Shown here: piece by piece, positions 952 to 35,917 of the stretch
How positions within the stretch are numbered: position 1 is the first letter of the stretch
How the letters are laid out: every line of letters starts with the position of its first letter
Assembly (NCBI RefSeq): GCF_009363055.1
Contig: NZ_CP045292.1
Location: 1,054,001-1,118,000 of the forward strand
From: Flavobacterium haoranii
GTDB lineage: Bacteria > Bacteroidota > Bacteroidia > Flavobacteriales > Flavobacteriaceae
Reading direction: 5' to 3'
Length of the DNA: 64,000 nucleotides
Made by a program: the position numbers and the translations under genes
The notes under the pieces: model-generated
Seen by the model: the letters and a program-made list of their open reading frames with translations, nothing else
Told to the model about the DNA's origin: nothing
The model's database searches: none

Positions 952-1099
952 AGGCTACTTGTAACATTGCATATATTCAATAGCGGTTTTTGGGTAACAC
1001 CAAAAGCCGTTTTTGCACTTGTAATGTAATGTAAAAAACAAATAATATAGTAAATTTGTCCGCTACTAGAGTATATGCGGAACCGTTAGCTGCTATATT
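952..1099 (+). repeat. attC-like site 1
   Basis: The site opens with AAC at 963-965 and closes with GTT at 1085-1087. The left arm AACATTGCATATATTCAATA pairs imperfectly with the right arm ending CTACTAGAGTATATGCGG plus AACCGTT; the right arm carries extra unpaired bases. A smaller internal hairpin is present (GGTTTTTGG, then CCAAAAGCC). Its left arm is almost identical to that of site 8 near 35199, 34 kb away. Confidence 0.6.
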
Positions 1100-1120
1100 A
1101 CCCAACAGAACGAATAAACA

Positions 1121-1669
1121 ATGTTTAAAAAAATCTTTTCAATATTTAGTAAAAAACTGGAACTTGAAAATTTTGACGCTCTGCATCAAATTGAAAATAT
1201 TGGAGAGAGAAAAAAGATTGATTTATTAATTGGAGATAAAATTCTGGAAATAAAAACCCATTTTGAATATAGAAAAATAAATGATTGGCTTGATACAAGC
1301 ATTGCGTTCATACGTTTGGAGCGAAATGGAATAATTTGTTTTCCATATTCTGGAGATGAGGATTTTGAAAATGTGAATATTGAAATTAAAGCTGAACCAA
1401 TTCTTGAGAAATTCCAAAACATAATTTACGGAACCACAATTGAGGATATATATTATATTGTTGATGGCAATGAAGAATTTGATGAAATGCAAATGGGATA
1501 TTTTCTATTAAATAACGATTATATTTTAGAAGAAAACAGAATGTCCCCATCTGGAATTGGTGGAGCGGACATGTTTTGCAAAACTTCAGCAGAATTTGAA
1601 AAAGAAATACTTGAAAATAATATTTCAATTTATTCAGTAAAAAATAAAGCTATAAAATACAGCAGCTAA
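1121..1669 (+). CDS. Hypothetical protein, single-gene cassette
   Basis: A 182-residue soluble protein without signal peptide or membrane segment. It is acidic and rich in aromatic residues, with mixed alpha/beta character: a positively charged N-terminal helix (MFKKIFSIFSKKLELENF), then alternating strands such as KIDLLIGDKILEIK and GIICFPYSG. A glycine patch, SPSGIGGADMF, lies near residue 143. I recognise no family; size and acidity fit many small immunity-like or stress proteins, but nothing proves that. The TAA stop at 1667-1669 overlaps the AAC of the next attC-like site, so gene and site form a compact unit. Confidence 0.6.
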   Translation: MFKKIFSIFSKKLELENFDALHQIENIGERKKIDLLIGDKILEIKTHFEYRKINDWLDTSIAFIRLERNGIICFPYSGDEDFENVNIEIKAEPILEKFQNIIYGTTIEDIYYIVDGNEEFDEMQMGYFLLNNDYILEENRMSPSGIGGADMFCKTSAEFEKEILENNISIYSVKNKAIKYSS

Positions 1670-1836
1670 CAGCGGTTTTGTGAAAGCGGGGTTTTAGGAT
1701 TTATCGGTAATGGTCAGTGTTTGCACTTCGCTCCTATTTTTGAGCTTTTTTCTTTCAATCTTTTCGGTATATTTGTAAACATCAGTAACAAAAATCCCCG
1801 CCTTCACAAAGCCGGCGGGACGTTATAAGCTATTTT
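1655..1836 (+). repeat. attC-like site 2
   Basis: AAC lies at 1668-1670 and GTT at 1822-1824. The arms are strong and GC-rich: GCGGTTTTGTGAAAGCGGGG on the left pairs with CCCCGCCTTCACAAAGCCGGC on the right, with asymmetric extra bases (GGGAC) before GTT. The loop is about 80 nt and contains AAACATCAGTAAC, which recurs in the degenerate site near 35860. Confidence 0.65.
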
Positions 1837-2343
1837 ATGAAAAACTTGATAATCAAATTATTAAGTTTGTTTTTTTCAATTTGTTTTTTAAGTTGTAATC
1901 CAAATAAAAAAATTGATCGAGAAAACGAACCAACAATCTACAATATTCAAAGTGATGATTCTGAAATGAATCAAGCAATTGAAAATGCAAAACAAACACT
2001 AGATAGTTTTGACTTTGCTTTGAATAATAATACTCGAATTTTTACTTTTTTTGGATTAAAAAAAAGAGTTATTGAAAATGGATTTGTTGAACATATTTGG
2101 ATAGGAAATATCAAAAAACTTGATAATGAAAATTATATTGGCATTGTAGATAACTTACCAGAAAAAATAGAAAACATAAAATTAGGTGATACAGTACAAA
2201 TAAATAGAAAAGAAATAAGTGATTGGATGTACATAAAAAATTCAAAACTTCATGGCGGATTTTCAATTAAGCTACTAAGAGATAGAATGACAAAAGAAGA
2301 AAGGGAAAACTTCGACAGAGAAAGCGGAATGAAAATCGAATAA
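1837..2343 (+). CDS. DUF2314 domain lipoprotein, cassette gene
   Basis: A 168-residue protein with a lipoprotein signal ending in CFLSC (cysteine 20). From about residue 45 the sequence follows the DUF2314 (YegJ-like) pattern: an FFGLKKRV segment, then VEHIWIGNI, then a YIGIVDNLPEKIENIKLGD turn, and ISDWMYI with a following glycine (LHGGFSIKLLRDR). That order is characteristic of DUF2314, whose molecular role is unknown; members are often small and secreted. It is the only gene of its cassette: the ATG lies 13 bp after GTT and the next AAC lies 15 bp after the stop. The family call is from recognised motif order only. Confidence 0.7.
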   Translation: MKNLIIKLLSLFFSICFLSCNPNKKIDRENEPTIYNIQSDDSEMNQAIENAKQTLDSFDFALNNNTRIFTFFGLKKRVIENGFVEHIWIGNIKKLDNENYIGIVDNLPEKIENIKLGDTVQINRKEISDWMYIKNSKLHGGFSIKLLRDRMTKEERENFDRESGMKIE

Positions 2344-2344
2344 A

Positions 2345-2502
2345 AAAAACAGCTTATAACATCGGCTATAAATCATGGCTAGGTTTGCGCATATTTTCCG
2401 AATTTTCTCCGAAAATTCGAAATTAAATTCTATATTTGGAATGGCTCGGTTTGTGGTTTTCGCCACAATTTTATAGCCGAGGACCGTTGTGCGTAATACT
2501 AA
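2345..2502 (+). repeat. attC-like site 3
   Basis: AAC lies at 2358-2360 and GTT at 2486-2488. The main stem TCGGCTATAAA pairs with TTTTATAGCCGA; the left side has one unpaired A after AAC and the right side has the bulge GGACC before GTT. An internal hairpin CGAATTTTC-TCC-GAAAATTCG lies in the left half. This is one of the clearest copies. Confidence 0.7.
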
Positions 2503-2514
2503 AAAAACAAAACG

Positions 2515-3189
2515 ATGAAAAATAAAATAATCTTTTTTATCCTTTTTTCAATTTTATTTTCAAGTTGTGAAAGTGATCCTATTGAAGCAAACATTCAAAC
2601 GACTGTTCAAGGTGTAATTTTTGATAATGTAAATCAAGAGCCAATAGTAAATCAAGAATTAATTATTTCTGAATATAAAAAACGATTTGTTTCTGATGGA
2701 GGAACTGCTTATGACTTCATACAAAATGTTGGTTCTACAATCACGGATTCAAACGGTAATTATCATTTAACTTTTTCAACTTCTGGTAAAGGAGATTACT
2801 ATACAATAAGTCCTTCTCATAATAATTTAATATGGAATTATTATCAAGATAAACTTGAAATAGGAAATATTGGCTCAAACAATGTATTTAACTATAATTT
2901 TTTAAAACTTTACCCTTGCATCCTGACAATAAACACAAATAACATTCAAAATATTCCATTACATATTAGTCATTTTTTAACTTTAAATAGTGAATTAAGT
3001 AATATTACTGAATATAATGGAACAGAAACAAGAACAATCTACATTGACAAGAATACAAATCAAGAAGTTAAATTTTACAGAAACATTACTCCAAATAATT
3101 CTCAAATTGCAACCATAGTAATTCCAGCAACTAATATTAATCAACAAACTACTTTTGAAATTAATTTATCAGATAGTGATTTTCAATAA
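2515..3189 (+). CDS. Lipoprotein with carboxypeptidase-regulatory-like fold, cassette gene
   Basis: A 224-residue protein with a lipobox ending at cysteine 18 (LFSSC). Residues about 28-100 show the beta-sandwich pattern of carboxypeptidase-regulatory-like domains: VQGVIFDNVNQEPIVNQELI, then STITDSNGNYHLTF. The rest is asparagine and threonine rich and likely beta. Such domains usually build surface lipoproteins in Bacteroidota; no enzyme motif is visible. It sits alone in its cassette, 27 bp after GTT, with its stop about 11 bp before the next AAC. The gene is AT-rich like its neighbours. The exact role is unknown. Confidence 0.6.
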   Translation: MKNKIIFFILFSILFSSCESDPIEANIQTTVQGVIFDNVNQEPIVNQELIISEYKKRFVSDGGTAYDFIQNVGSTITDSNGNYHLTFSTSGKGDYYTISPSHNNLIWNYYQDKLEIGNIGSNNVFNYNFLKLYPCILTINTNNIQNIPLHISHFLTLNSELSNITEYNGTETRTIYIDKNTNQEVKFYRNITPNNSQIATIVIPATNINQQTTFEINLSDSDFQ

Positions 3190-3338
3190 GTACTACGCAC
3201 AACAGCGGTTAAAAAAAATGGCTAGGTCAAGAATTTCCCGAAAATTCTCCGAATTTTCTAAATTTTGTCTATTTTTGGTTTGGCTTGGTTTTGGCTCACG
3301 CCACTTTCTTTAGCCGCGGACCGTTAGCAGAAATTTTA
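3186..3338 (+). repeat. attC-like site 4
   Basis: AAC lies at 3201-3203 and GTT at 3323-3325. The arms GCGGTTAAA...ATGGC and GCCACTTTCTTTAGCCGC pair, with the right-side bulge GGACC before GTT. An internal hairpin GAAAATTC-TCC-GAATTTTC is present. The outer arm AGTACTACGCACAAC matches the start of its own cassette (GTTGTGCGTAATACT) at 14 of 15 positions in reverse complement. Confidence 0.7.
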
Positions 3339-3349
3339 AGAATAATATT

Positions 3350-4450
3350 ATGTTTGAAAATGAACCTAATGATTTTTTACTCCATAAAATTATGAATAGT
3401 GAAAATTATTCACATGAATATATTAAAGAAATGCATAATGAATTGGAAAAAAGAAGAATTAAAAATTCTTCAAATGAAATGCTGATATTTGAATTTATAT
3501 TTTCTGAAAAATATTCTAAAGAGAATTTAACAAATGTTGGATTAGAACTTAAAAATAGAGGAATAGATACATCAAAATTTGACGATTTTACTTATATTGA
3601 TTGTGTAGTGTTTCAATTTCCTAGTGGTTGGGAAAGTCTTTTAAAAGAGATGTTTTTAAAATTAAAAGACAATGGTTGGAATGCAGAAAACAGATTACAT
3701 TTTAATTTTTCATTTGGTTCAATTAATATTGAAGGATTAAGAAACAAGAGTAATCCTGTTCTAAACGATATTGTAGAAGATTATATTAGTGACCTTTTTA
3801 AAACTTGTTGTCATTGTTCTTCAACAGATAAAGTAGAATATTTTGAAGATTTATATTTATGTCCAAGCTGTATGCTTGAAATAATTAATAAAAGAGAGAT
3901 ATTAGAAATTTCTAAATTTGGGTTTGTTTATTATAATGGACCAATTTACGAGAATGAAATAGGCAGATTTGACAAAATAAGATGGAGTGAAATTAAATAT
4001 GTAGCTTTTGAACAAAATCTTGAATTAGATATAATAAAAGTTGACTTAAATAAATTAACTGAAGAGGAATTGTCATCAAATGAAGAAACATCAAACTCAT
4101 TTTTTAGAGATAACTATATTTCATTTAGTAGTGATTATCACATCAATTTTTTTGAATTATTAGGACATATTCCACAAAATATTTTATCAACTAAAATAAA
4201 AGAAGAAATAAATTATGTTTTAAAAAAAATTAAAAAATGTAAAGTTTGTGAAAAAAAAGCAATAATTAATGATAAATGTCTATTGTGTGGTAATTACAGC
4301 TCACAGATTGAAAAACCAAGAGAAATTTGGATAAAAAGGTTTGGAAGTAAAGAAAATTATTTACAATATTTAAAAGATAATTATTTAAATTTTACAAAAA
4401 ACAATTATTCTCATAATTATATATTAGAAAATGACAAATCTTTCAAATAA
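3350..4450 (+). CDS. Hypothetical protein with two zinc-ribbon-like Cys clusters
   Basis: A 366-residue soluble protein without signal peptide. Two metal-binding-like cysteine groups stand out: near residue 152 a CCHC cluster paired with CPSC about 20 residues later, and near residue 299 CKVCEKK paired with CLLCG. Both look like zinc ribbons. The N-terminal third is acidic and helical. The C-terminal tail WIKRFGSKENYLQYLKDNYL may be an amphipathic helix. I do not recognise the family. It is the sole gene of the last cassette before the island; the attC-like site following it starts normally (AACAGCGG) but lacks its right half nearby. Confidence 0.55.
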   Translation: MFENEPNDFLLHKIMNSENYSHEYIKEMHNELEKRRIKNSSNEMLIFEFIFSEKYSKENLTNVGLELKNRGIDTSKFDDFTYIDCVVFQFPSGWESLLKEMFLKLKDNGWNAENRLHFNFSFGSINIEGLRNKSNPVLNDIVEDYISDLFKTCCHCSSTDKVEYFEDLYLCPSCMLEIINKREILEISKFGFVYYNGPIYENEIGRFDKIRWSEIKYVAFEQNLELDIIKVDLNKLTEEELSSNEETSNSFFRDNYISFSSDYHINFFELLGHIPQNILSTKIKEEINYVLKKIKKCKVCEKKAIINDKCLLCGNYSSQIEKPREIWIKRFGSKENYLQYLKDNYLNFTKNNYSHNYILENDKSFK

Positions 4451-4530
4451 AAAAAACTTCTGCTAACAGCGGTTTGTTGTAATTACGCCTGTAAAGTACT
4501 ATATTTATTGATATTTTTAGTTTTCAAACA
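4450..4530 (+). repeat. attC-like site 5, left half (split by island)
   Basis: AAC lies at 4465-4467 in the context CTTCTGCTAACAGCGG. The outer arm matches the start of its own cassette (GTTAGCAGAAATTTT) at 14 of 15 positions in reverse complement, so this is the genuine left end of the site. No right end follows. Instead 4492-4510 (TAAAGTACTATATTTATTG) has its inverted partner at 31916-31934 with one mismatch, beyond the 27 kb island. Confidence 0.55.
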
Positions 4531-4537
4531 TTCATTA

Positions 4538-4561
4538 GTACAACATAAGTACAACAAATCA
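4538..4561 (+). other. Candidate attL of the island
   Basis: Two GTACAACA units lie 3 bp apart; the second extends to GTACAACAAATCA (4549-4561). The same arrangement, spaced 4 bp, occurs at 31838-31862 next to the tyrosine recombinase. The 13-bp direct repeat GTACAACAAATCA is the best candidate for an attachment core. The island's first gene ends within it. Confidence 0.5.
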
Positions 4562-5050
4562 GAACTTTTTTACATGCTTGTAAATACCTCTTTTTTTAAG
4601 TTGTGCTTTGCGATTCATTTTTTGAAATTCTGCTAATCGTCCACAATAATATTCGTCTGTTGCTTTTGCAAATCCATTGATCAAAAGCAAATCATTCAAA
4701 CACTCCCCTCCTGGCAAGATTACATATCCTAATTGTCGGTTCCAATAATCATAAAAGTTATCCTGTTCTGTAATTATCGTTACAACCGTTTTAGGCGGTG
4801 CCACTTCCAAAACATAATGTAAGGCTTCCAATCCTAATTGGATTAAAAATTGAGCAGCTAAACGTGTTTTCTGTTCGTCCTCTTTCATCTTTCTATTGTA
4901 CTTTACTTCTGGTGCATCTAAACCATATAGTCGTATCTCTTTTCGCAAACGAGTGAAAAGATTGCTAATGATTATGCTGTCCCCATCTTTGACTTCATCT
5001 ATTTGCCAATGGGTTTCCACTAAATAGGGTGCTTTTGCGTTATATTGCAT
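4559..5050 (-). CDS. SNase-like (thermonuclease family) nuclease
   Basis: A 163-residue protein of the staphylococcal nuclease-like family, which cleaves nucleic acids with Ca2+. Visible motifs are DGDS at residues 22-25 and RLYGLDAPE at 40-48, corresponding to the RLxGIDAPE active-site segment, and later YWNRQLGYVI, the usual second conserved block. Unlike secreted family members there is no signal peptide, so it would be cytoplasmic unless the start is misplaced. Its stop lies inside the candidate attL repeat, so it is the first gene of the island, divergent from the next gene with about 97 bp between. Its biological target is unknown. Confidence 0.75.
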   Translation of the reverse strand: MQYNAKAPYLVETHWQIDEVKDGDSIIISNLFTRLRKEIRLYGLDAPEVKYNRKMKEDEQKTRLAAQFLIQLGLEALHYVLEVAPPKTVVTIITEQDNFYDYWNRQLGYVILPGGECLNDLLLINGFAKATDEYYCGRLAEFQKMNRKAQLKKRGIYKHVKKF

Positions 5051-5147
5051 TGATTTTCAGTATTTTAAGTTATTGTAAATCAAAGATAATGAATGATATT
5101 TGAGTATAAAATTTCACTTAAATATTAACTTCTAAAATCTTTACAAA

Positions 5148-5950
5148 ATGGCTAGACAGAAAGGCGTTTTAAAGTATGTGGGGACTCTTGGAGATGTTCG
5201 CCACTTTAAAATTAAAGGGCAAGAAGGTTACTTTGCCGGAATGGTAGGTGGACCTTCAGGGGAGCAAGTATTAACTGCTCCAGAATTTGAAAGAACTCGT
5301 GAGAACATGAACGAGTTTGGTGCTTGTGCTAAAGCAGGAAAATCAGTTAGAACTGGTCTATCACAAATCGTGAAGCAAATGTCTGATACGCAAGTAGCAG
5401 GGCGTTTAACCGCTATCATGAAGAAAATCAATTTGGAAGACCAAACCGAAGCCAGAGGGTATCGAAAAATTGAGATTACCACTCAAAGAAATTACTTGGT
5501 AGGTTTTGAGTTTGACAAAACACTTCCTTAAATGGTATTTTCAATGCTCCTTACAGTGTTACGCATGACCCAGCAAGAAACACTGCTGATTTTGTAATTC
5601 CTGCGTTTAATCCAGCGAATTTGATTAATGCTCCTGCAGGTGCTACTCACTTTAGATTGATTCACACGCTTTCTGTAGTGAGTGACTTTGCTTACAATGC
5701 TGTAACGAATAGTTATGATCCTATTGACACAGCACAGAATGAAGTGAGTGATGTTCAATTCAGCACTTTCTTGGACTTGTATGCTCCTGCAACTGCTACT
5801 ACCATTACAGCAACTTTGCCAAATGGTATCACACCATCTGCAGATGTTACCGTTCTTCAAGGTATTGGAATTGAGTTCTACCAACAAGTAGGTTCAAACT
5901 ATTACTTATTTGCAAGTGGAAACTGCTTGAAAATTGAGGACGCATTTTAA
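5148..5950 (+). CDS. Bacteroidota phage-like hypothetical protein (MARQKG family), one-base frameshift
   Basis: The first frame ends at 5531 and the same protein continues in another frame from 5528 to 5950. Adding one T to the TT at 5528-5529 joins them into a 267-residue protein reading ...KTLPLNGIFNAPYSV. The start MARQKGVLKYVGTLGDV and the block GRLTAIMKKI match, from memory, a Bacteroidota family often found near DUF5675 genes in phage-like modules; the C-terminal half has a beta-rich pattern (ATHFRLIHTL). Function is unknown, possibly structural. The break looks like a homopolymer deletion in the sequence rather than decay, though a programmed -1 shift is not excluded. Confidence 0.6.
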
Positions 5951-5975
5951 GAATCCTACTTACAAATCCCTCAGC

Positions 5976-6003
5976 AACTCTGAGGGATTTTTTGTTTTAA
6001 CTT
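5976..6003 (+). terminator. Rho-independent terminator
   Basis: The hairpin ATCCCTCAG-CAACT-CTGAGGGAT is followed by a T-rich tract, 25 bp after the stop of the preceding gene and 16 bp before the next ATG. Confidence 0.75.
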
Positions 6004-6018
6004 ACTAATTCAATTCCC

Positions 6019-6471
6019 ATGGAAACAAAAATCATTCGCGTAGCACAGGGCAAACAAAGTACATTAAGCCAATTATATATCAATGGAGTATTTCAATGCT
6101 ATTTACTAGAGGATAAAATACGAACTGAAAAAATCAAGGAACAAACTGCCATACCTACTGGAACCTATTCACTGCAGCTTAATACTTGGGGTGCAAAAAA
6201 TGTGAACTACAAAAAAGCATTTGGAAAAGTTCATGAAGGTATGATTGAAATTACAGGATTACCAAATTTCAGTTATGTGTATATCCATACAGGAAATACG
6301 ATTGAAGATACCGCAGGATGTCCGCTTTGTGGATTTGGGTTCCAACTTATCCAGGGCGATTACCGCGTTACGCAAAGTGTTATGGCTTACCAAATGATTT
6401 ATCCTAAGCTAGCTGCATTAGCAAAGAACAAAGCAAACAAGATTAGTATCGAAAACAATTTTCAATTTTAA
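6019..6471 (+). CDS. DUF5675 family protein
   Basis: A 150-residue protein recognised as DUF5675: an N-terminal beta hairpin (STLSQLYINGVFQCYLLED), the TAIPTGTYSLQL turn, the ITGLPNFSYVYIHTGNT core with a conserved histidine, and the ENTxGC-like segment IEDTAGCPLCG. The family is common in Bacteroidota phages and phage-derived modules and its fold resembles L,D-transpeptidase-like or lytic accessory proteins; catalytic activity is not established. It stands directly downstream of the phage-like protein and upstream of two very small genes, giving a four-gene module on the plus strand. Confidence 0.75.
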   Translation: METKIIRVAQGKQSTLSQLYINGVFQCYLLEDKIRTEKIKEQTAIPTGTYSLQLNTWGAKNVNYKKAFGKVHEGMIEITGLPNFSYVYIHTGNTIEDTAGCPLCGFGFQLIQGDYRVTQSVMAYQMIYPKLAALAKNKANKISIENNFQF

Positions 6472-6483
6472 ACTTGTAATGCC

Positions 6484-6627
6484 ATGGCATTATTAATTAA
6501 AACCGAGTTTAAAAGTAGCAGTGATTTACTGAACCAAAAAGTAGATTATTTAGAACACCGAGTACAAAAATTAGAAATGCTTTGCATTCACGAACACCAA
6601 AGCGAAACAATTAAAAAAAATAAGTGA
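6484..6627 (+). CDS. Small hypothetical protein, 47 aa
   Basis: A short frame, MALLIKTEF followed by a heptad-like stretch (LLNQKVDYLEHRVQKLEML) that suggests a coiled coil. It starts 13 bp after the DUF5675 stop and its TGA overlaps a GTG that can open the next frame (GTGA), suggesting translational coupling. Too short for a family call; the position in a compact module and the coiled-coil pattern support it as real. Confidence 0.5.
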   Translation: MALLIKTEFKSSSDLLNQKVDYLEHRVQKLEMLCIHEHQSETIKKNK

Positions 6628-6914
6628 GTAATTATCCATCTTTAAAAATCACGAACATGAAAAGTAATGAAATGAATATCGTTCAAAGAGTAAAAGCTCC
6701 AACACCAAAGTTTTTCAAAGTATTGAGAACAATTGGTTTAGCCTTGGCAACCGTTGGAGGAACTATCATCGCTTCACCAATTGCATTGCCGGCTGGATTA
6801 GTTGCAGCTGCAGGTTATTTGGTTTTGGGCGGTGGTGTATTGTCGGCAGTATCGCAAACCGCTGTACAAGATGAAGAAGAACCGAGAGTTCCACAGGAAG
6901 ACAAGGTTCAATAA
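6624..6914 (+). CDS. Small membrane protein, holin-like in shape
   Basis: A 96-residue frame with two adjacent hydrophobic helices (VLRTIGLALATVGGTIIASP and LPAGLVAAAGYLVLGGGVL) and an acidic tail (DEEEPRVPQED). The start is uncertain: GTG at 6624 overlaps the preceding stop, while ATG at 6657 and 6672 are alternatives. Two helices with a charged tail fit a holin or a phage-derived membrane protein, and the DUF5675 neighbour supports a lysis-like module, but no motif proves it. A terminator follows 28 bp after the stop. Confidence 0.5.
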   Translation: MSNYPSLKITNMKSNEMNIVQRVKAPTPKFFKVLRTIGLALATVGGTIIASPIALPAGLVAAAGYLVLGGGVLSAVSQTAVQDEEEPRVPQEDKVQ

Positions 6915-6941
6915 AACTAAAATTGCTTACAAGTTGCAATC

Positions 6942-6970
6942 AAAAGCTCCTATTTCAGGGGCTTTTTTTT
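6942..6970 (+). terminator. Rho-independent terminator of the small phage-like module
   Basis: The hairpin AAAGCTCC-TATTTCA-GGGGCTTT (one G.T pair) is followed by eight or more T residues. Confidence 0.75.
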
Positions 6971-7117
6971 GTTTTATACTCAATTGCATCACTTTTTCCA
7001 ATTTTATTTAATTGGTGCGTTTATATTGCCGTTATGTATTGTTTTGCTTCGGGATAGGGATTGTTTTTGTAAATTTGATGAAATGAAAAAACCTAGCCCA
7101 TCGGGGCAAGGTTTGTG

Positions 7118-7480
7118 TTATTTGTTTCTGTAACGGAGTAAGATGGCGTTACGGATTTCGTTGATTAAGTGGATGTTTTTTGCGTGGTGTGCTTCTTGTT
7201 CTTGCAGCAGCTTGAGCGCTTGGATGTTTTTATGGTGCAGCTCGTGTTCACGCATTAATCGGGTGGCTTTTGGATTGAATTCTTTTTTGAATTCATAGAG
7301 GGATAAGAACGGAATAACCGAACCGCGAAGAAAAGGCATCCAGAATTGGGATTTCCATAGGCTCATGGCTATCCAAAAAATGTCTTCTTTTTGAGCTTCG
7401 GTTTGAAATACTAGTACAAAGCTGTTTGTAAAGGGTTCTATTTGTGGTTTGCCGCTATTAAATCCTTTGTTTGTAAATCG
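7118..7480 (-). pseudogene. 5'-truncated hypothetical protein
   Basis: The shortest frame starts at ATG 7366, but the same frame stays open upstream to about 7480 with convincing protein sequence (FTNSFVLVFQTEAQKEDIFW) before meeting a stop. The C-terminal part has a histidine-rich helical segment (EHELHHKNIQALKLLQEQE, EAHHAKNIHLINEI). The N-terminus thus seems to be missing and the gene was probably cut by recombination at about 7480-7500. No family is recognised. A short remnant of a different gene begins immediately beyond the break on the other strand. Confidence 0.45.
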
Positions 7481-7499
7481 TCAGCAAAAAGTGGACTGA

Positions 7500-7583
7500 T
7501 TTAATACTCACGGAATTCATCCAGAAATAGGTAAAGCCTTGAAACCTGTCACTAAATACATCATTAACAAGTATGTAAAATAA
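7500..7583 (+). pseudogene. C-terminal gene remnant
   Basis: An open frame without start codon encodes FNTHGIHPEIGKALKPVTKY followed by IINKYVK and TAA. It looks like the last 27 residues of a longer protein whose body is absent. It abuts the truncated minus-strand gene, marking a recombination scar at about 7480-7500. Confidence 0.3.
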
Positions 7584-7672
7584 TAATTATGAAATTCTAT
7601 AGAATTATTTAATTCAAGAATAAAATTATAATATTTAGAAAACTTTTAGTTTCTTTGAAAAAAATATAGATG

Positions 7673-7686
7673 TACGGATTTCCGTA
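7673..7686. promoter_or_regulatory. Palindrome upstream of the giant adhesin
   Basis: TACGGA-TT-TCCGTA is a perfect 6-bp inverted repeat about 147 bp before the adhesin start. It could be an operator for a dimeric regulator. The 7584-7832 stretch is otherwise without genes. Confidence 0.35.
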
Positions 7687-7749
7687 TTGAATAGTCCCCA
7701 ATTCAACCTATTTTTACTCACACCTTTTTCTGTAATAAAAAGATGTATA

Positions 7750-7777
7750 TTGATTTCATTTACAATCGGTTTATTTG
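7750..7777 (+). promoter_or_regulatory. Weak candidate promoter of the adhesin gene
   Basis: TTG at 7750-7752 and TTTATTTG at 7770-7777 are spaced 17 bp, one mismatch from the Bacteroidota TAnnTTTG element. Confidence 0.3.
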
Positions 7778-7832
7778 GTGCTGCAACATAGAAAATGTTG
7801 TAGAAAATTGAATTAAGTTAAAATATATTATC

Positions 7833-23658: not shown

Positions 23659-23729
23659 GGGTATTGAAATTTACATTTTTCATTACGCTTTTTATGATTT
23701 ATACATAAGTTGAGATACTGTTTTACTTT

Positions 23730-26525: not shown

Positions 26526-26590
26526 AAAGGTGGTCAGTTGGCAGAAAAAAAAGTGGCAACTTGCGTTTACCACTTTTGATTTTTTTGGGT

Positions 26591-28814: not shown

Positions 28815-28838
28815 GTTTGAGTGATTAGTGAATAGTGA

Positions 28839-28910: not shown

Positions 28911-28911
28911 A

Positions 28912-29193
28912 CTATTTTCCTTTGAATGATTTGTTGTAGTGTTCTTGTAGTAGTTTTTCAACATCAGAAAGTTTGTAGTAGATTTTACTTCCAACTTGAC
29001 TGAATGAGATTTTACCTTCATCTCTCCAGGTTTGTGCGGTGCGTTTTGAGACTTTCATGAGCATGATGAACTCTTGATTGTCTAAGAAGGTTTCTTTCTT
29101 TGGGTCTGGCTTGGCGTTTAGTTGGCTTTGAATTGCATCTAATTTTGCCATTAAGTCATTGTACTGGTCTTTTGTTAAAATAATTGCTTCCAT
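28912..29193 (-). CDS. Helix-turn-helix excisionase-like protein
   Basis: I start at 29193 (MEAIILTKDQY) because the longer frame from 29256 adds an unlikely hydrophobic leader and crosses the probable promoter. The 93-residue protein has an N-terminal helix and a MerR/HTH_17-like domain: FLDNQEFIMLMKVSKRTAQT, then WRDEGKISFSQVGSKIYYKL. This form is typical of excisionase or small regulatory proteins beside Bacteroidota tyrosine recombinases and primases. It lies directly upstream of the VirE-type gene on the same strand. It probably binds island DNA to control excision or primase expression; that is inference from family and context. Confidence 0.75.
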   Translation of the reverse strand: MEAIILTKDQYNDLMAKLDAIQSQLNAKPDPKKETFLDNQEFIMLMKVSKRTAQTWRDEGKISFSQVGSKIYYKLSDVEKLLQEHYNKSFKGK

Positions 29194-29281
29194 TTTCGTA
29201 GTTTTTAAAAGTTTATGGAGCAAAATTGTGAAGTAAAAAAAGTCCCTTAGTCCCAATCGGGTCCCAAGGGACTATTATTTT

Positions 29282-30189
29282 TTAGAGTAAGTTATCGAGG
29301 TCTATTCGTTTGTGGGTCTTTGGTCGTTTATCGCCTCTTGATGGTTTGAGGATGGTTTCGACTGTTTGGGGACTTATTTCGTTGTTGTCTTTGTCGATAA
29401 AGTTATTGACGATCATATTTACGATTTCGCCATTGGAAGCATCAATAAAAGATTTTCCATCAACAAATAGTTCACGACTTAGTTGGTAGAATATGTCTAC
29501 TAATTGGTTTAGATTTCCGTTAAATTTTAGTTTTTTAGTTATTAGTTTTTTCTCCAATTCTAGTTCTTTTTCCTTCTCAATTTCCGAACGCATTTTACGA
29601 AGCGTTTGTAATTTTTCAATGAATTGAGCGCATTGCTGGTCATAAGCTTGCAGCTTGTTATTGATTGAAATAATGTCGGCTTGTTTATATTCGAAAATTT
29701 CTTCGTTTAAAAACAAGATTTGATCATTGAACGATTCCATTTTTTCAACCTGATGTTTGATTTCAAAAAACGAAAAATAACGATCTTCCGATTCGGCATT
29801 GATTAACCTTTTTGGAGTACTTTGTTTGGTTTCTTTTACGCTCGAAGATTGCAGCTCCGTTCGTTTTTTCTCAATAATGTTGTACAATTTGTTGAATCTA
29901 CTCAGTGCCTTTTGACTAAAGAATAGTTCTTCATTATTGCTAATAATTTTTCGAATTTGTTTAACCAGGTGTTTCCGTCTTGGGCAATTTGGAGTTGGTA
30001 GTTAATGAATTCGGGTAGTTGGGATTGTGGGATTGTAAATACTTTTTCGAGTAAAGCAATACAATAGTTTTCCAGTGTGGGTTCCTGGTCGTGCGTAATG
30101 TCAAAAATAGAAGCTGCACTTTGTGCTGTGTCGATGGTTCTCCATTCTGAGAACAATGATTTTTTGATGTTTTGCCCTTTCAAGTTCAC
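29282..30189 (-). CDS. Coiled-coil island protein of unknown function, one-base frameshift
   Basis: Frames 29902-30189 and 29282-29887 fuse into 302 residues when one base is added to the T5 run 29947-29951, giving KFEKIISNNEELFFSQKALS and then RFNKLYNIIEKKRTEL. The start is probably GTG 30189 (VNLKGQNIKKSLFSEW) because the frame closes at a TGA a little upstream. The middle is a long charged coiled coil (FIEKLQTLRKMRSEIEKEKE) and the C-terminus is basic (SRGDKRPKTHKRIDLDNL). The pattern is reminiscent of RteC-like proteins of Bacteroidota mobile elements, but I cannot confirm that. It lies between recombinase and excisionase-like gene. Confidence 0.5.
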
Positions 30190-30476
30190 GTTTTTTGCCG
30201 GTGTTAAATTTGTTCATTATTTGTTATTTGGTTACACTTTTTCCAATGTCACGACTTGAAATGATATAGTCGCTTGAAGTTCAGGTATACTTCAAGTAAA
30301 TTTCAATATGATTTTGGAAGTTTTTTACTATTTGGGATGCCTAAAATTAGAACAAATTCAGTACCTGTTTGCGTTGTTTTTCGTACAAGTTTTTTACAAA
30401 ATTGCGAAGGCTTGTATTTGCTAGGGTTTTGGATTTAGAAAGTAAAAAAGAGTGAAATTTACCTTCGAAAAAGAAA
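30190..30476. promoter_or_regulatory. Gene-free stretch with inverted repeat
   Basis: No gene seen. At 30273-30296 CTTGAAGT-N8-ACTTCAAG forms an 8-bp inverted repeat, with a further ACTTGAA at 30254, upstream of the coiled-coil gene. It could be an operator or an accessory recombinase/excisionase site. Confidence 0.4.
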
Positions 30477-30509
30477 ACGAGAGTAATTTTTTGAAGTAAT
30501 TACTCTCGT
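30477..30509 (-). terminator. Terminator of the recombinase gene
   Basis: ACGAGAGTAATT pairs with AATTACTCTCGT, and on the minus strand the stem is followed by TTTTCTTTTT. It lies 7 bp past the recombinase stop. Confidence 0.75.
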
Positions 30510-30515
30510 TCTGTT

Positions 30516-31733
30516 TTAATTTATGTATTGGTCTACTGCTTTGTCTAATTCTTCATTTATGATTTTTGCATAGATTTGAGTAGTACTGATATCGTTGTGA
30601 TCCATTAGTTTTGATACGTGCTCAATTCTCATTCCGTTATTTAAAGCATTGGTTGCAAATGAATGTCTACTTACGTGAAATGAAACTGGTGTTTCTATTT
30701 TTAGTTTTTTAGCAATTCTTTTTAATTGAAAATTAGCAGAATGATTTTTACTTTTTATCATTTCATAACGATACTCTTCACTTCTTAAAAACAATTCTGT
30801 ATTTGGAATTACATTAAAAATTAAATCCTCTGGGTTAGAATCTTCATTTATATATTTGGTAATAATATCAAAAGCAATTTGTCCAATTTTAAACTGATGT
30901 AATCTACCCGTTTTATGTATTACTTTTTTAATTCTTTTTTCTTCCCAATTAAAATGTTTTGCTTGTAAACCTAATACATCTCCAAATCGTAAACCACCAG
31001 CATAAATTGAAAATACAAACATATCTCTATAAATATCTTCTAAATGTCCGGGTTTAGCTTTGTAATTTACATACGCTTCTATTTGTTCTTTTTTTAAAAA
31101 GTGCCTTTTACTTTTTTCTTTTTTTAAACTCAATTTACTAAATGGATACATTGTTGATGGAATAACATCTTCTTTTATTGCTTCTTTAAAAACAATCGCC
31201 AAAATCATAACTGAATATCTTTGAGTTGTATGATTATTTTTCAAAACATTACTCATATAACTCATGTATTCATTCAACATTTGAACTGTTATATCATCAA
31301 AATAAACATCTTTATTTCCATGCCAATTTTTAAATTTATTTATTAATAAATCATAATTATTATAGGTACTTAATGATTTATTTCCTTTGATTCTAGCAAG
31401 ATATTTTGTTGAATAATCGAAAAAGTTAGGCACATCTTTTCCTTTAATGGCTTCTTTTAATTTTCGAACTGAAATAGACTTTACCTTTCTTTCCATATCG
31501 GCAATTTGCGCTTCAGCATCAGCAATCTTCTGAGCCAAAGCTGCATTCATTCTAGCACTATTCGGATAGCTTTTCTTAACTCTCTGCTTTGCTTCATCCC
31601 AGTCACTTTCTTTAAGCTTGAGTCCGGCTGTGATAAATTTCGTTTTTCTATCTTTTATAATTCTAATGTACAAAGGGCTTTTGCCTGTTTGATCTTGCTG
31701 ATTTGAGCGAAGAACTAATTTAATTGATGCCAT
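30516..31733 (-). CDS. Tyrosine recombinase (phage-type integrase)
   Basis: A 405-residue site-specific recombinase starting at MASIKLVLRSNQQ; the longer frame from 31781 runs into the attachment region and is less likely. It has the Bacteroidota N-terminal arm-binding domain, a SAM-like core-binding domain and the catalytic domain with R249 (AGGLRFGDVLG), H353-x-x-R356 (FHVSRHSFAT), H379 (LMDHNDIST) and the nucleophile Y388. It sits with its 5' end next to the right attachment region and is transcribed into the island. It shows no sign of the extra IntI patch, so it is the island integrase and not the enzyme of the cassette array. Confidence 0.9.
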   Translation of the reverse strand: MASIKLVLRSNQQDQTGKSPLYIRIIKDRKTKFITAGLKLKESDWDEAKQRVKKSYPNSARMNAALAQKIADAEAQIADMERKVKSISVRKLKEAIKGKDVPNFFDYSTKYLARIKGNKSLSTYNNYDLLINKFKNWHGNKDVYFDDITVQMLNEYMSYMSNVLKNNHTTQRYSVMILAIVFKEAIKEDVIPSTMYPFSKLSLKKEKSKRHFLKKEQIEAYVNYKAKPGHLEDIYRDMFVFSIYAGGLRFGDVLGLQAKHFNWEEKRIKKVIHKTGRLHQFKIGQIAFDIITKYINEDSNPEDLIFNVIPNTELFLRSEEYRYEMIKSKNHSANFQLKRIAKKLKIETPVSFHVSRHSFATNALNNGMRIEHVSKLMDHNDISTTQIYAKIINEELDKAVDQYIN

Positions 31734-31752
31734 AAAGAAGAATTTAATGTAT

Positions 31753-31862
31753 TGTTGTACTATATTTGTAAAGTGGTGCAAACGAGTGAAAGTGTTGATT
31801 TTACTAGCATTTCAATCTAGTGCAACGGAGTACTAAGGTACAACAATTGGTACAACAAATCA
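31753..31862. other. Candidate attR and recombinase binding cluster
   Basis: Contains an inverted TGTTGTAC (31753-31760), GTACAACA (31838-31845) and GTACAACAAATCA (31850-31862, matching the left end), plus GTGCAAACGAGT at 31776-31787 and GTGCAACGGAGT at 31820-31831. A third GTGCAAACGAGT lies just outside at 31936-31947. The clustering suggests core and arm-type sites for the adjacent integrase. Confidence 0.5.
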
Positions 31863-31904
31863 AGTATTTTATTGCTTTTTTATGCTTAAATTTGCTTTAG
31901 TATT

Positions 31905-31948
31905 TTTTATAAAGTCAATAAATACAGTACTTTAAGTGCAAACGAGTT
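31905..31948 (+). repeat. attC-like site 5, right half
   Basis: CAATAAATACAGTACTTTA at 31916-31934 is the inverted partner, with one mismatch, of 4492-4510 on the other side of the island. GCAAACGAGTT then ends in GTT at 31946-31948 and can pair with the AACAGCGGTTTG opening at 4465. Confidence 0.45.
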
Positions 31949-31957
31949 CATACAAAA

Positions 31958-32113
31958 ATATAATGCCTACAACAGCGGTTTGCTTCAATGGCTACTTCCG
32001 GATTTTCCTACGGAAAATCCGCTGCTGAATGGAATGTTTTGTTATATTTGTAATGGCTTGGTGTTGGTGCATCGCCACTGAGAGCAAGCCGCAGAACGTT
32101 GTGCGTCATTTAA
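31958..32113 (+). repeat. attC-like site 6
   Basis: AAC lies at 31971-31973 and GTT at 32098-32100. The left AACAGCGGTTTGCTTCAATGGC pairs with the right half GCCACTGAGAGCAAGCCGC before AGAACGTT. It has an internal hairpin, CGGATTTTCC-TA-CGGAAAATCCG. No gene belongs to this site in the current arrangement. Confidence 0.6.
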
Positions 32114-32129
32114 GAAAATCCGAAAGACA

Positions 32130-32357
32130 ATGACAAGAATAGAATTTATTGAGTTTTTAAAAGAATTTAAAACTGACTTTGACCAAAACAAAGAAAATTG
32201 GGAAAACATCAATCTTTCTGATTTTTTAGAAAGTATGATTGCTTACACAGAAGATATTCAAGGCTTTTATGACAATATGGGAATGAAAATAAATGCAGAT
32301 AATCCAACTTGGGAAAATTTCAGTCATATCTTAAAAGGTGCTTCAATTTATGAGTAA
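32130..32357 (+). CDS. DUF7660-like small protein, first gene of a two-gene cassette
   Basis: A 75-residue acidic protein without signal peptide. The order RIEFIEFLKEFKTDF, ENWENINLSDFLESMIAYTE and PTWENFSHILKGASIYE resembles the DUF7660 family, small proteins of unknown function often found in mobile or defence-rich regions. The start is 30 bp after GTT. Its stop overlaps the start of the next gene in ATGAGTAA, so the two are translationally coupled and probably act together. Family assignment is from memory and moderate. Confidence 0.6.
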   Translation: MTRIEFIEFLKEFKTDFDQNKENWENINLSDFLESMIAYTEDIQGFYDNMGMKINADNPTWENFSHILKGASIYE

Positions 32358-32739
32358 ATTATACAAGATAACTTTAAACGGAACTCAAATCGGAACTTCT
32401 AAATTGGAAAAAGCCGATGCACCTATGGGAGTTGCATTTGGACAGTTAGAATTTAACGGAATTGAATCGCCCTACAAATTCCTCAAAGAATATTGTTTTA
32501 ATAATGAAATCGAACTCGCCTTTGATTATCCAGAAGTCAAAATGATTTCAACTATGAGTATTTCAGAAATTAAAATCACGAGTGACAAAGGAATTGAAAT
32601 TAAAGGAGTTGGAAATCAAATAACAGGAATGGATGAAGAAGAATACGAAATATCAATATTCGGAATTCCGTATCCATTTTACGAAGAAGAATTTCCAAAT
32701 CATGTGGCTGAATACCGATCAATGTTTGATGAAAAATAA
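32350..32739 (+). CDS. Hypothetical protein, second gene of the cassette
   Basis: I choose ATG 32350 (MSKLYKITLNGTQIGTSKLE) over the upstream ATG 32338, because 32350 lies within ATGAGTAA overlapping the previous stop. The 129-residue protein is acidic and soluble, with beta-rich N-terminus (ITLNGTQIGTSKLEKADAPM) and a tail of proline and aromatic residues (IFGIPYPFYEEEFPNHVAEY). No family is recognised; the DUF7660 partner suggests a two-component unit of unknown role. The attC-like AAC lies 12 bp after the stop. Confidence 0.6.
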   Translation: MSKLYKITLNGTQIGTSKLEKADAPMGVAFGQLEFNGIESPYKFLKEYCFNNEIELAFDYPEVKMISTMSISEIKITSDKGIEIKGVGNQITGMDEEEYEISIFGIPYPFYEEEFPNHVAEYRSMFDEK

Positions 32740-32891
32740 AAACGAACGCACAACATTGGTTAGCTTTTATTGTGGCTTCTCGCCTACTTCCGAATTTTCT
32801 CCGAAAATCCGAAAGTATTCGTATATTTGGTTTGGCTAGTAACAAAAACACCACAACATCAGCTAGCCAAGGACCGTTACAAGTAATTTTG
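32738..32891 (+). repeat. attC-like site 7
   Basis: AAC lies at 32752-32754 and GTT at 32876-32878. The stem TTGGTTAGCT / AGCTAGCCAA is followed by the right-side bulge GGACC and GTT. It has an internal hairpin, CGAATTTTC-TCC-GAAAATCCG. Confidence 0.7.
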
Positions 32892-33017
32892 TGACAAGCA
32901 AATCGTAAAATATTCCGAAGTATTTTACAAAAGGATAATGTTACTGCTTTAACCGAACGGTTTAACAAATCCTTTTCAACCGTCAGTTTGTAAACTGAAA
33001 AGGTTTAAATTACAATT

Positions 33018-34598
33018 ATGAAAAAAAATTCAATTAAAAGATTTTATTTTTTAGTCATTGCTCCATTCCTACTCTTAAGTAGTTGCTTAAATGAAGATGC
33101 GCTAGAAAAAGTTTCTCACGAACACAAACACAGGTTCAATCAGGAAATTGTTTCTTTCTCTAAAGTCAATTATTTAGAACCTCAAATCAACAGTTTTTAT
33201 CAAGCTCGAAATCAAAATTTGAGAACCAGCTCTACAGATTCTCTCAATCTTGATTTAAACCGAGTTTTAGTAATTGAAGACTCACAATCTAACTATAAAA
33301 GTTATTCAATCGTTATTAATAATTCAATTCCTGAAAATTCAACATATTTCTTTGAAAATTATCATATTATAGAAGAAGATGATATCATTCTTGATTCTTT
33401 TATATTTAGATGGACTTCAGATAATCCACAAGATGATTTTAACTTAAAAACATTTTCAGGAACTGTTCAAAAATTCGACATCAATTATAATTTGATTACT
33501 CAAAGTTTTTATATTAATGGTGTACTACAACAACAAAACTATAATGGAAATAAAAATATAGCTAGTAATAATGATACATTCGAGTATTATATGGCTTGTG
33601 ATGTAGTTACTACTTGTCCTTGTCAGGGGACAGGAAGTGGATACTGTAGTTGCGACCCTACTTCAGGTAGTTATACTGATAGCTGTGGAATGACCGTAGG
33701 TATTGTTTGCTATTTAACAGGTGGTGGCTCAGGTGATGGTGGTTCTGGTGATTCTGGTAGCGGACTTGGTGGTGAAGGTGGCGGCGGTGGTTCTAGTAAT
33801 AATGGACAAAATGACGATAATATTGGTGATAATGGTGACCCACTTCATCCTGTTGTGCCTCTAGAACCTTTAGAAGATACCGATTTTCTAGAAGAAGTTG
33901 TTACTGACCCTTGTGATAACTTGGAAACAAAAACTTCCAAAAAGTTAAATTATATGGCTAATTTTAATAACCTAAATCAACCTAATAAATATACTTTTCC
34001 TGAAGAAAGTGGATTTGTAGAAAAAAAAGTAAATGGGATGAGTCAATATCAATATATAGAAGGTGTTAATGGGAAAGCATTAAATTTTCCAGCAGGATCA
34101 TTAAATTTTACTCATGTTCATAATAATAAGCCTGCCGTTAACTCTGATGGACAAAATTATGATGAAGCTATTAAAATGTTTTCACCTAGCGATTTAAGTG
34201 GACTTTTAGGAAATTGTAAACGTTCATGTGAAATGGTAGGATTATCCTCAACAGATGCATTTGGAGTTCTGATTTCTAATGAGGGAATCTTTTGTATTTC
34301 TATAATTGCTAATATAACTCAAACAGAAATTGATTTTTACAATCAAAAATGGAATAAATTTCAAAATAGATATGAAACAAAATGTGTAAATCTTATGGTA
34401 GATTTTAACACATATACTCCTAACCAAAGAAAAGAAATATTACAAAAAATGTTTTTAAAAGAATTAGAGAAACTTCAGTTAAATGATAAAATTGGTTTTT
34501 TTGAAGGAGAGGTTTTAATTGAAAATGGAATAGAAAAACTAAAATGGAAAAGAAAAACATTAAATAACTCAGGCTCATTAGTAGAAACTCCATGTTAA
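33018..34598 (+). CDS. Large lipoprotein with Gly-rich linker and putative metalloprotease-like end
   Basis: A 526-residue protein with lipobox cysteine 23 (LLLSSC). A threonine- and cysteine-rich stretch (CDVVTTCPCQGTGSGYCSCD, about 196-215) leads to a Gly/Ser/Asp linker at about 235-265. The C-terminal domain has FTHVHNNKPAV and, about 27 residues on, MFSPSDLSGLL, which recalls the HxH...SxxD arrangement of JAB/JAMM proteases, though spacing is longer than usual. The modular lipoprotein-linker-domain plan is common in surface-exposed Bacteroidota proteins, possibly effectors. The leader (about 32965-33010) can form a hairpin, CAGTTT-GT-AAACTG flanked by CCTTTTCA and AAAAGG. It is the first gene of a 2.4 kb cassette, 16 bp before a second lipoprotein. 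Confidence 0.55.
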   Translation: MKKNSIKRFYFLVIAPFLLLSSCLNEDALEKVSHEHKHRFNQEIVSFSKVNYLEPQINSFYQARNQNLRTSSTDSLNLDLNRVLVIEDSQSNYKSYSIVINNSIPENSTYFFENYHIIEEDDIILDSFIFRWTSDNPQDDFNLKTFSGTVQKFDINYNLITQSFYINGVLQQQNYNGNKNIASNNDTFEYYMACDVVTTCPCQGTGSGYCSCDPTSGSYTDSCGMTVGIVCYLTGGGSGDGGSGDSGSGLGGEGGGGGSSNNGQNDDNIGDNGDPLHPVVPLEPLEDTDFLEEVVTDPCDNLETKTSKKLNYMANFNNLNQPNKYTFPEESGFVEKKVNGMSQYQYIEGVNGKALNFPAGSLNFTHVHNNKPAVNSDGQNYDEAIKMFSPSDLSGLLGNCKRSCEMVGLSSTDAFGVLISNEGIFCISIIANITQTEIDFYNQKWNKFQNRYETKCVNLMVDFNTYTPNQRKEILQKMFLKELEKLQLNDKIGFFEGEVLIENGIEKLKWKRKTLNNSGSLVETPC

Positions 34599-34614
34599 TT
34601 TATAAATTTATAAT

Positions 34615-35187
34615 ATGAAAAGAATAGTAAACATAATTATACTTTTTTTGATATTCTCAACGAATTCAAGCTGTCAAGTTACAGCAACGCTGCCATTAAA
34701 TAGTTATGATTATCCTAATGGAGCATACCTTAAAGATATTAACAATCAATTGCCATTTTATGTTGGTACTTGGGAGGGTATTCAAAATAATAAACAATAT
34801 ACTTTCCAATTTACAGTTTTTAACCAACAAATGATTGACTTTGGTAATGGTCATTATGAATACTTAGATGCTTTGGTTGCAAAATTTAAAGTTGTTGATT
34901 TATCCTCTTCAGAAGTGTTGTATGATAATTTATCAGCTGTAAATTATGATGATTATGAAATATTTTTAGGTTCAATACAACTTGGAACGTTTTTTTGTCT
35001 TGATAAGAATAATTGTAATAACTTAGCTAAGTTTAAGTTATATAAAGTAACTGGAACAACTAATCAGTTAAATTATAATGATTTTAGACTAGTAGAATTT
35101 GGAAGTATAGATGAATGTCCTTATACAAATCAAGAAGATATCCCAATATTTTTACCAACAGGTGATTTTATTTTAACAAAACAATAA
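34615..35187 (+). CDS. DUF6705 family lipoprotein
   Basis: A 190-residue protein with lipobox cysteine 20 (FSTNSSC). The pattern YDYPNGAYLKDINNQLPFYV, GTWEGIQNNKQYTFQFTVF and the later LAKFKLYKVTG matches the DUF6705 family, found in Flavobacteria as secreted lipoproteins; the role is unknown. The domain looks like a lipocalin-type beta barrel. It follows the large lipoprotein by 16 bp, so the two are co-transcribed in one cassette, which suggests a functional pair (for example surface protein and partner). The attC-like AAC lies 11 bp after the stop. Confidence 0.65.
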   Translation: MKRIVNIIILFLIFSTNSSCQVTATLPLNSYDYPNGAYLKDINNQLPFYVGTWEGIQNNKQYTFQFTVFNQQMIDFGNGHYEYLDALVAKFKVVDLSSSEVLYDNLSAVNYDDYEIFLGSIQLGTFFCLDKNNCNNLAKFKLYKVTGTTNQLNYNDFRLVEFGSIDECPYTNQEDIPIFLPTGDFILTKQ

Positions 35188-35338
35188 AAACTACTTGTAA
35201 CATTGTATATATTCAATAGCGACTTTTGTTTCAACATAAAAGTCGCTTTGTGTTTTTAAAGCTTGTAATAAAAGGAAAGTTTAATTACTTTTATTCCGCT
35301 ACTGTAATATATACAAAAACCGTTAACAGCTAGTATAC
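35184..35338 (+). repeat. attC-like site 8
   Basis: AAC lies at 35199-35201 and GTT at 35322-35324. The left arm ACTACTTGTAACATTGTATA is nearly the same as at site 1. An inner stem is visible (AGCGACTTTTGTTTC, then CATAAAAGTCGCT), and the right arm contains CCGCTACTGTAATATATA before AAAAACCGTT. Confidence 0.65.
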
Positions 35339-35366
35339 GAAACGAACAAAACAGATATGAATAAAA

Positions 35367-35777
35367 ATGTTTAATTCCGTAGAATTATATTTACTCAACA
35401 AACTACTCAACAAAATTAAATATTCTGATAGAGATCCATATGAATTGAATGAATTTGCATTTAGTCCAATAACAAATCAAATTATAGAGAAGCTCAAAAT
35501 AGAATTAAAGTTGAATGAACAAATAAAAAAGTTGTCTTCACAAAATCCAAAATTTAAAAACCTTACTTTTGAGTTTGACAATTATATAGGAAAAAACATA
35601 AAAGAAAATTTAATTTACCAAAGCGATTCTTCCTTCGAAGTAATTTCAAAATTTAACGATAATGAACTTGAAACATTTACTATAGATATAATTGGACCTA
35701 TTGATTTTGAAAAAACTGAATTGGAAAAATTAAAGAAATATATAGAAGAATTAGCTAAGAAAAATACCAGCAGTTAA
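35367..35777 (+). CDS. Hypothetical protein, last cassette gene
   Basis: A 136-residue soluble protein, lysine and glutamate rich, without signal peptide. The N-terminal half is helical (VELYLLNKLLNKIKYSDRDP, EKLKIELKLNEQIKKLSSQN); the central part has possible strands (FEVISKFNDNELETFTIDII). I do not recognise a family. The TAA stop at 35775-35777 overlaps the AAC of the following site, as for the gene at 1121, so gene and site are closely fitted. The start is 43 bp after the GTT. Confidence 0.55.
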   Translation: MFNSVELYLLNKLLNKIKYSDRDPYELNEFAFSPITNQIIEKLKIELKLNEQIKKLSSQNPKFKNLTFEFDNYIGKNIKENLIYQSDSSFEVISKFNDNELETFTIDIIGPIDFEKTELEKLKKYIEELAKKNTSS

Positions 35778-35917
35778 CATCGGCTATAAATTATGGCGGC
35801 GCTTGCGCATTTTTCCGAATTTTCTCAAAATATTCGAAAGTATTTTTCTATATGTAAACATCAGTAACGAAAAACTCCAACTTCTTAAAATCAGCATATC
35901 GTTGCAGTCTATCTCTG
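35762..35917 (+). repeat. attC-like site 9, chimeric
   Basis: The left half (AAC 35776-35778, then ATCGGCTATAAATTATGGC) is of the site-3 type. The right half (AACATCAGTAAC, then AACTCCAACTTCTTAAAATC, and GTT at 35901-35903) resembles the site-2 type and does not pair with the left. The site seems recombined, and the cassette that would follow is missing. Confidence 0.5.

Follow-up and report, generated by a model that had tools for sequence, protein, structure and literature searches.

What kind of system gathers genes at a locus where cassettes stand in tandem between hairpin sites that begin with AAC and end with GTT, as in integrons, and where the two ends of each cassette are matched to each other? 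The locus lies in a 64,000-nt stretch (the window, C1:1054001-1118000) of a 2.87-Mb, single-contig, Flavobacterium-like chromosome. We think it probable that the window holds the distal end of a large chromosomal integron-like array, in which a recombinase acts at GTT in the manner of IntI and the cassettes carry 15-nt outer arms with an A·C pair as a polarity mark. Judged from its sequence, the system is one that works like an integron and lacks one defining feature, the IntI domain.

The array runs from its first start arm to its last site at C1:1005846-1089903 (approximately 84 kb, 58 sites), and its last 35.9 kb are inside the window. The window has eight sites, of which seven are hairpin sites (S1-S7) and the last (S8) is damaged; a closer search of fetched stretches, with one overlap removed, gave 50 distinct sites upstream of these eight. 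A covariance model (R1) was built on S1-S7 with the outer arms left out, so the arms are an independent test. In its own genome, R1 finds 37 sites at E <= 0.1, all on the + strand, with 36 of them at C1:1009761-1089903. A lone degenerate site (L031) lies at C1:1219226-1219350, approximately 129 kb past the array.

The start arm of a cassette is its first 15 nt, from GTT, and the end arm its last 15 nt, ending with the next AAC. We compared them in three sets of intervals between neighbouring sites. Set 1 has 158 distinct intervals from this genome and five congeneric relatives (G009, G011, G012, G021, G023), of which 156 were analysed, one being dropped because it is split by a 27.5-kb element and one because it starts with ATT. 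Set 2 comes from named genomes: R1 was run on 61 of the best 80 loci of one collection scan, and 62 of its 63 matches were used. Set 3 comes from 20 stretches of genomes across Bacteroidota, searched with model R2.

The original prediction claimed that the two arms are specific to each cassette and covary, and named a larger set of copies as the place to refute this. In the three sets together, the ends covary in 251 of 272 intervals (39/42 in set 2 and 57/74 in set 3) and the other 21 have no matching arms; pairing covers positions 1-10 and 12-15 and stops at 15. The recurring mismatch it described at position 11 is equally general: the start arm has A in 251/251 armed cassettes (39/39 in set 2, 57/57 in set 3) and the end arm has C opposite in 248/251 (38 in set 2, 55 in set 3). 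Among 328 distinct sites, A is at +11 in 326 and C is opposite, allowing a one-base slip, in 321, which makes the pair a feature of almost all sites.

Set 1 gives the profile of the arms position by position. Start arms match the reverse complement of their own end arms in 95-100% of cassettes at positions 4-9, 69% at 10, 2% at 11 (three extra-base cases), then 95, 92, 90 and 79% at positions 12-15 and 11% at 16, with agreement from there onward at chance level or lower. Arms of different cassettes match in 26-58% at positions 4-15 other than 11. Put another way, 6.60 of the seven positions 4-10 match within a cassette vs 2.89 between different cassettes, and 3.56 of the four positions 12-15 vs 1.71 (n=156). 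Distinct arm pairs number 143; all 156 start arms have A at position 11, and all 156 end arms have C opposite if one extra end-arm base is allowed. Three sub-types can be told apart: position 10 paired (108), position 10 unpaired (31) and one extra end-arm base (17). Fitting arms also occur in named genomes of Algoriphagus, Cyclobacterium, Aquiflexum, Flavobacterium aciduliphilum, F. enshiense, Algibacter, Winogradskyella, Seonamhaeicola and Alkalitalea, some with one cassette only. Within the window, all five arm pairs first quoted are present (cassettes 1-4 and 6 in Table 1), and two cassettes that had been passed over fit as well, one at 32098 with an extra end-arm base and one at 35322 with an extra mismatch at position 7. 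The arms had been expected to extend the hairpin by 10-15 bp beyond AAC/GTT; their length of 15 nt stands, and 12 nt of it are beyond GTT.

Movement of the cassettes was analysed with 201 units, each a cassette plus its site. A 967-bp unit is common to this array and Algibacter onchidii (95.2% identical, with unrelated flanks), a 388-390 bp cassette is found at four places of this array (93-98% identical), a 1.4-kb unit is shared by F. enshiense and two further genomes (96-99% in the part that matches), and there is an exact tandem duplicate of 758 bp. Common units begin at the first base of GTT, full-length pairs end just before the next GTT, and flanks are mostly unrelated. These edges fix the exchange point within GTT but not to G|TT, so the predicted recombination between G and TT is right as to the triplet and more exact than the data allow. 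Tandem, co-oriented mobile cassettes are thus present, their movement being read from the common units.

Matched ends could also arise by templated birth: making a cassette would involve copying its start arm into an end arm, and this process would leave the A·C pair behind as a fixed scar and not a functional mark. The arms are indeed copies that are nearly perfect, always with the same single difference and the same length, and by eye there is a single clear compensatory change between homologous cassettes. However, homologous cassettes whose other parts diverge by 5-13% still have the mark, so it is maintained after birth, and the three sub-types, with their position-10 changes and extra base, argue for drift under selection. 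We consider templated birth unlikely, while granting it a real minority share.

The integron-like reading needs a recombinase, and a tyrosine recombinase gene adjoins the array start, its stop codon 38 nt before the first start arm, with an attI-like point beside it, 48 kb upstream of the window. The closest named proteins to this integrase are from a Flavobacteriaceae metagenome-assembled genome (MAG; 94%) and a Flavobacterium haoranii MAG (96% over 63%). Among relatives of solved structure IntI4 is the closest to it in sequence; its catalytic domain is nearest to IntI4 by sequence and by Foldseek and nearest to archaeal Xer proteins by VIA-align. The IntI-specific additional domain around patch III is given as a defining feature of integrons in the relevant section of PMC9668308. 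This insertion is missing here: between two matched blocks, IntI4 has 63 residues (181-243) vs 21 (470-490) in the integrase. TIGR02249 matches the integrase in two pieces with 215 bits (cut-off 265), and NF040815 reaches 197 bits, also below cut-off. In a tree of 65 rows (three truncated rows omitted), the 13 classical IntI of the phylum are on one side of a 100/100 branch and all the new integrases are on the other, which puts the recombinase outside the clade of IntI. The tree has an arbitrary root and is read for this split and not for sister relations. The integrase is also apart from the two Xer proteins of its own genome.

Extra N-terminal sequence is present in the long form and in short forms of the integrase, and we read it as one or three modules of approximately 70 aa, with three copies in the long form. 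The module weakly recalls the HARP domain of SMARCAL1 (Foldseek E 0.54). A divergent variant (L235, L236, L244, L245) has a 272-306 aa integrase that is without the N-terminal module and is read away from the array, like that of classical integrons, and it keeps the 15-nt arms.

The arrangement recurs across Bacteroidota. We chose 38 loci that have both an integrase relative and one or more sites; in 32 of them the first start arm matches and is no more than 320 nt from the integrase open reading frame (ORF). These 32 include L242, where the match is weak, L237, which borders masked bases, and L068 and L233, where the script placed the ORF edge wrongly but the arm is still that near. The attI stretch is AT-rich, 30 of the 32 stretches have conserved bases before GTT (e.g., A at -8 in 29/30), and in most loci (28/32) integrase and array point the same way. 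In a Bacteroidota sample of 247 genomes, 117 have sites and 82 have the integrase, with sites in 69/82 integrase-bearing genomes vs 48/165 others (p=1e-16). Among near relatives, sites occur in 20/24 genomes with the integrase vs 10/36 without.

Might this be an ordinary integron after all, with a classical IntI elsewhere in the genome serving the sites and strongly paired R boxes appearing as long arms? The AAC/GTT ends, hairpin, array, integrase and attI all follow integron logic, and 27 of 72 genomes with a classical IntI also have R2 sites. However, this genome has no TIGR02249 match above cut-off, R2 sites show no positive association with classical IntI (odds ratio 0.57), and a search with R2 of 303 kb at 20 classical IntI loci gave none. 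The control consisted of 29 cassettes adjoining classical IntI genes in this phylum; 5 of the 20 fetched loci supplied them. Their arms match in 90% at position 10 and 72% at position 11 and are at chance from 12, 0/29 match at all of positions 12-15, and none of the 29 has an A·C pair of this kind at 11. The phylum's classical cassettes stop pairing at 10-11, without the mark, so an ordinary integron is improbable and the predicted distinction from classical attC sites holds. The prediction that the pairing goes far beyond that of classical sites was overstated: most gene cassettes have 9-11 consecutive complementary nucleotides (PMC2727003, in the part that treats them), so long arms are already known. 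What is new is the fixed mismatch, the 4-nt distal segment and the sharp end at 15.

The sites that separate the cassettes are hairpins of 116-188 nt. AAC starts and GTT ends occur in 180 of 181 sites (nine further matches cut by locus ends were omitted), the triplets having been part of the model. In 129 sites aligned to R1, 94.4% of cells are paired vs 66.6% in shuffles, and the L-stem has double changes at all 15 pairs beyond AAC/GTT, in both cases in an alignment fitted to the structure. Among 125 aligned sites, the spacers beside the triplets are unequal, the left one having 2 nt and the right one mostly 5-7 nt, and the internal loop, as fitted to the model, measures 3/3 nt at 79 sites and 3/4 nt at 45. 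Where the top strand has A·C, the bottom strand has a T·G wobble. With the arms alone, the bottom strand folds better in 246/251 cassettes (mean 1.05 kcal/mol), and with the whole circular hairpin it does so in 224/250 (mean 3.2 kcal/mol).

Sites may also serve expression. In the own-genus sites of set 1, the box TANNTTTG, which we take to be the flavobacterial -7 promoter element, stands in the transcribed direction in 136/179 vs reversed in 5/179 (e.g., in S3, 2358-2488), mostly 47-73 nt before the site end. On this bias, cassettes are probably transcribed from the preceding site, and each site may carry the promoter of the next cassette. Transcription of this kind would also suit a role in RNA, with start and end arms pairing in the cassette transcript for protection or termination and the site being secondary. 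However, sense RNA would bear an A·C mismatch and not a wobble, the other two sets keep their arms yet have no clear direction bias of the box (12 vs 7 of 57 and 12 vs 9 of 92), and cassettes move as units with edges in GTT. An RNA role is thus a shade less probable still than an ordinary integron.

Least probable of all is that housekeeping XerC/XerD moves the units at dif-like sites and the adjacent recombinase is incidental, since that recombinase, though Xer-like and next to an AT-rich attI, is at the array start in the 32 of 38 loci (chosen for having one), goes with the sites across genomes and is apart from the genome's own Xer proteins, and the sites are long hairpins and not short dif sites of 28 bp.

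On the integron-like reading, the recombinase would excise and insert cassettes at GTT on a folded bottom strand, as IntI does. The full-length recombinase-binding arm would be rebuilt only where a cassette's own ends meet, i.e., in a free circle or a looped-out cassette. A circle would have the 15-nt stem, which neighbouring arms in the array hardly form, so it would be expected to be the better substrate, favouring capture over loss. The A·C pair would be a fixed polarity mark, A in the right half and C in the left, that survives every exchange and keeps left/right and top/bottom apart through each one. As a wobble on the bottom strand and a true mismatch on the top, it would favour bottom-strand folding. 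Classical sites have their strand chosen by extrahelical bases, as a passage of PMC2727003 describes, and since this enzyme is without the IntI-specific domain, the A·C pair may replace them. We lean towards the view that Bacteroidota have a second kind of integron, with Xer-like recombinases that lack the IntI domain and with strand and polarity set by a fixed wobble/mismatch in an extended outer arm and not by extrahelical bases. Present-day integron detection uses an integrase profile derived from IntI and so presumably misses such a system.

Several observations weigh against this account. The account is read from sequence throughout, recombination included. Sites occur in 10 of 36 integrase-negative relatives, and none were found in 13 of 82 integrase-bearing genomes. 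Three of the 251 armed cassettes have no opposite C (one each in L139, L235 and L244), and the 21 intervals without matching arms still have A at position 11 of the start arm. A compensatory change inside a homologous cassette family was noticed once only (position 10, L081 3177 vs L082 12909), by eye and with no systematic count. Within an array site, the arms of neighbours pair barely above random (2.93 vs 2.69 of 7, sd 0.08), so excision from the array cannot rely on a 15-nt stem. The top strand folds better in 23/250 circular hairpins, and at L-stem columns 10/247 the commonest pair is a top-strand T·G (75/125), which is A·C on the bottom and thus opposite in sense to the arm mark, so a simple rule that wobbles favour the bottom strand fails for some pairs. 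Finally, the four divergent loci keep their arms without the N-terminal module, so the module is not the reader of the distal arm everywhere.

The features placed in the window are listed in Table 1. The element inserted in S5 carries its own tyrosine integrase (30516-31781, - strand) and excisionase-like, primase/helicase and methyltransferase-like genes, as well as a 3325-aa repetitive ORF with 870-nt repeats (window 7833-17810). The 12-bp copies of AACAGCGGTTTG that bound it are the R''/L'' start of an attC-like site, which thus seems to serve this mobile element as its attachment site. At the other end of the window's array, the right tail of S8 resembles S2 with its pairing lost, and S8 is probably a broken or recombined array end.

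Table 1. Sites, cassettes and inserted element of the array within the window (window coordinates).
Feature	Position	Strand	Details
attC-like site S1 (AAC...GTT)	963..1087	+	
Cassette 1	1085..1670	+	start arm 1085-1099 (A at 1095), end arm 1656-1670 (C at 1660); ORF 1121-1669
attC-like site S2	1668..1824	+	
Cassette 2	1822..2360	+	arms 1822-1836 / 2346-2360; ORF 1837-2343 (DUF2314)
attC-like site S3	2358..2488	+	
Cassette 3	2486..3203	+	arms 2486-2500 / 3189-3203; ORF 2515-3189
attC-like site S4	3201..3325	+	
Cassette 4	3323..4467	+	arms 3323-3337 / 4453-4467; ORF 3350-4450; site S5 split by inserted element
Inserted element in S5	4465..31982		approximately 27.5 kb between direct copies of AACAGCGGTTTG (4465-4476, 31971-31982)
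attC-like site S5, complete right copy	31971..32100	+	
Cassette 5	32098..32754	+	start arm 32098-32112; end arm to 32754, one extra base, then A·C
attC-like site S6	32752..32878	+	best R1 match
Cassette 6	32876..35201	+	arms 32876-32890 / 35187-35201; ORFs 33018-34598, 34615-35187 (DUF6705)
attC-like site S7	35199..35324	+	
Cassette 7	35322..35778	+	arms 35322-35336 / 35764-35778, extra mismatch at position 7, A·C at 11; ORF 35367-35777
Last site S8, array end	35776..35903	+	left half S3-like; right half without matching L' box

How does this system compare with known ones? With classical integrons (class 1, Vibrio superintegrons and those of Chlorobi, Ignavibacteriae and Salinibacter) it shares a co-oriented array, AAC/GTT hairpin attC sites, cassette-specific end pairing, an adjacent tyrosine recombinase with attI, and a better-folded bottom strand. 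It differs from them in a recombinase without the IntI-specific domain and outside the IntI clade, in 15-nt arms with a near-invariant A·C at 11 (vs 9-11 nt), in unequal spacers (left 2 nt, right mostly 5-7 nt), and in an integrase mostly read with the array. Simple XerA/XerC-like tyrosine recombinases (NF040815; archaeal 4a8e, XerA 5hxy) have a similar catalytic domain and no IntI insertion, but here the enzyme is tied to a cassette array and has extra N-terminal sequence in long and short forms. XerCD-dif modules have short dif-like sites and no recombinase of their own, unlike the 116-188 nt hairpins and adjacent recombinase of the chosen loci.

In the literature, the sections concerned report complete integrons in Chlorobi, Ignavibacteriae and one Salinibacter (PMC9024848), list Bacteroidota among integron phyla (PMC9668308, PMC8618304) and describe Treponema integrons (PMC3607928). 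Neither these arrays nor the A·C rule was found in the passages of the open-licence papers searched, a collection without preprints. In Riemerella anatipestifer, according to a section of PMC13148043, the gene aph(3')-IVb is integrated independently of homology; it brings along 27 bp of 5' sequence and a 140-bp 3' stretch that folds like attC. Riemerella too belongs to Bacteroidota, and these lengths agree with one start arm on the 5' side and, on the 3' side, an end arm followed by a site of approximately 125 nt; that section does not describe an integrase, arms or mark, and the comparison is by description only. We regard a link between this uptake and the present arrays as a lead.

Taken together, this looks like an overlooked branch of gene-collecting systems in bacteria related to Flavobacterium. 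With its fixed A·C pair the system offers a rule, open to direct test, by which a recombinase could distinguish the two strands of a hairpin, and it may also explain the published homology-free gene uptake in Riemerella. If the arrays are active, then integrons exist without the IntI domain, and a large gene-exchange system of a major phylum has gone unnamed.

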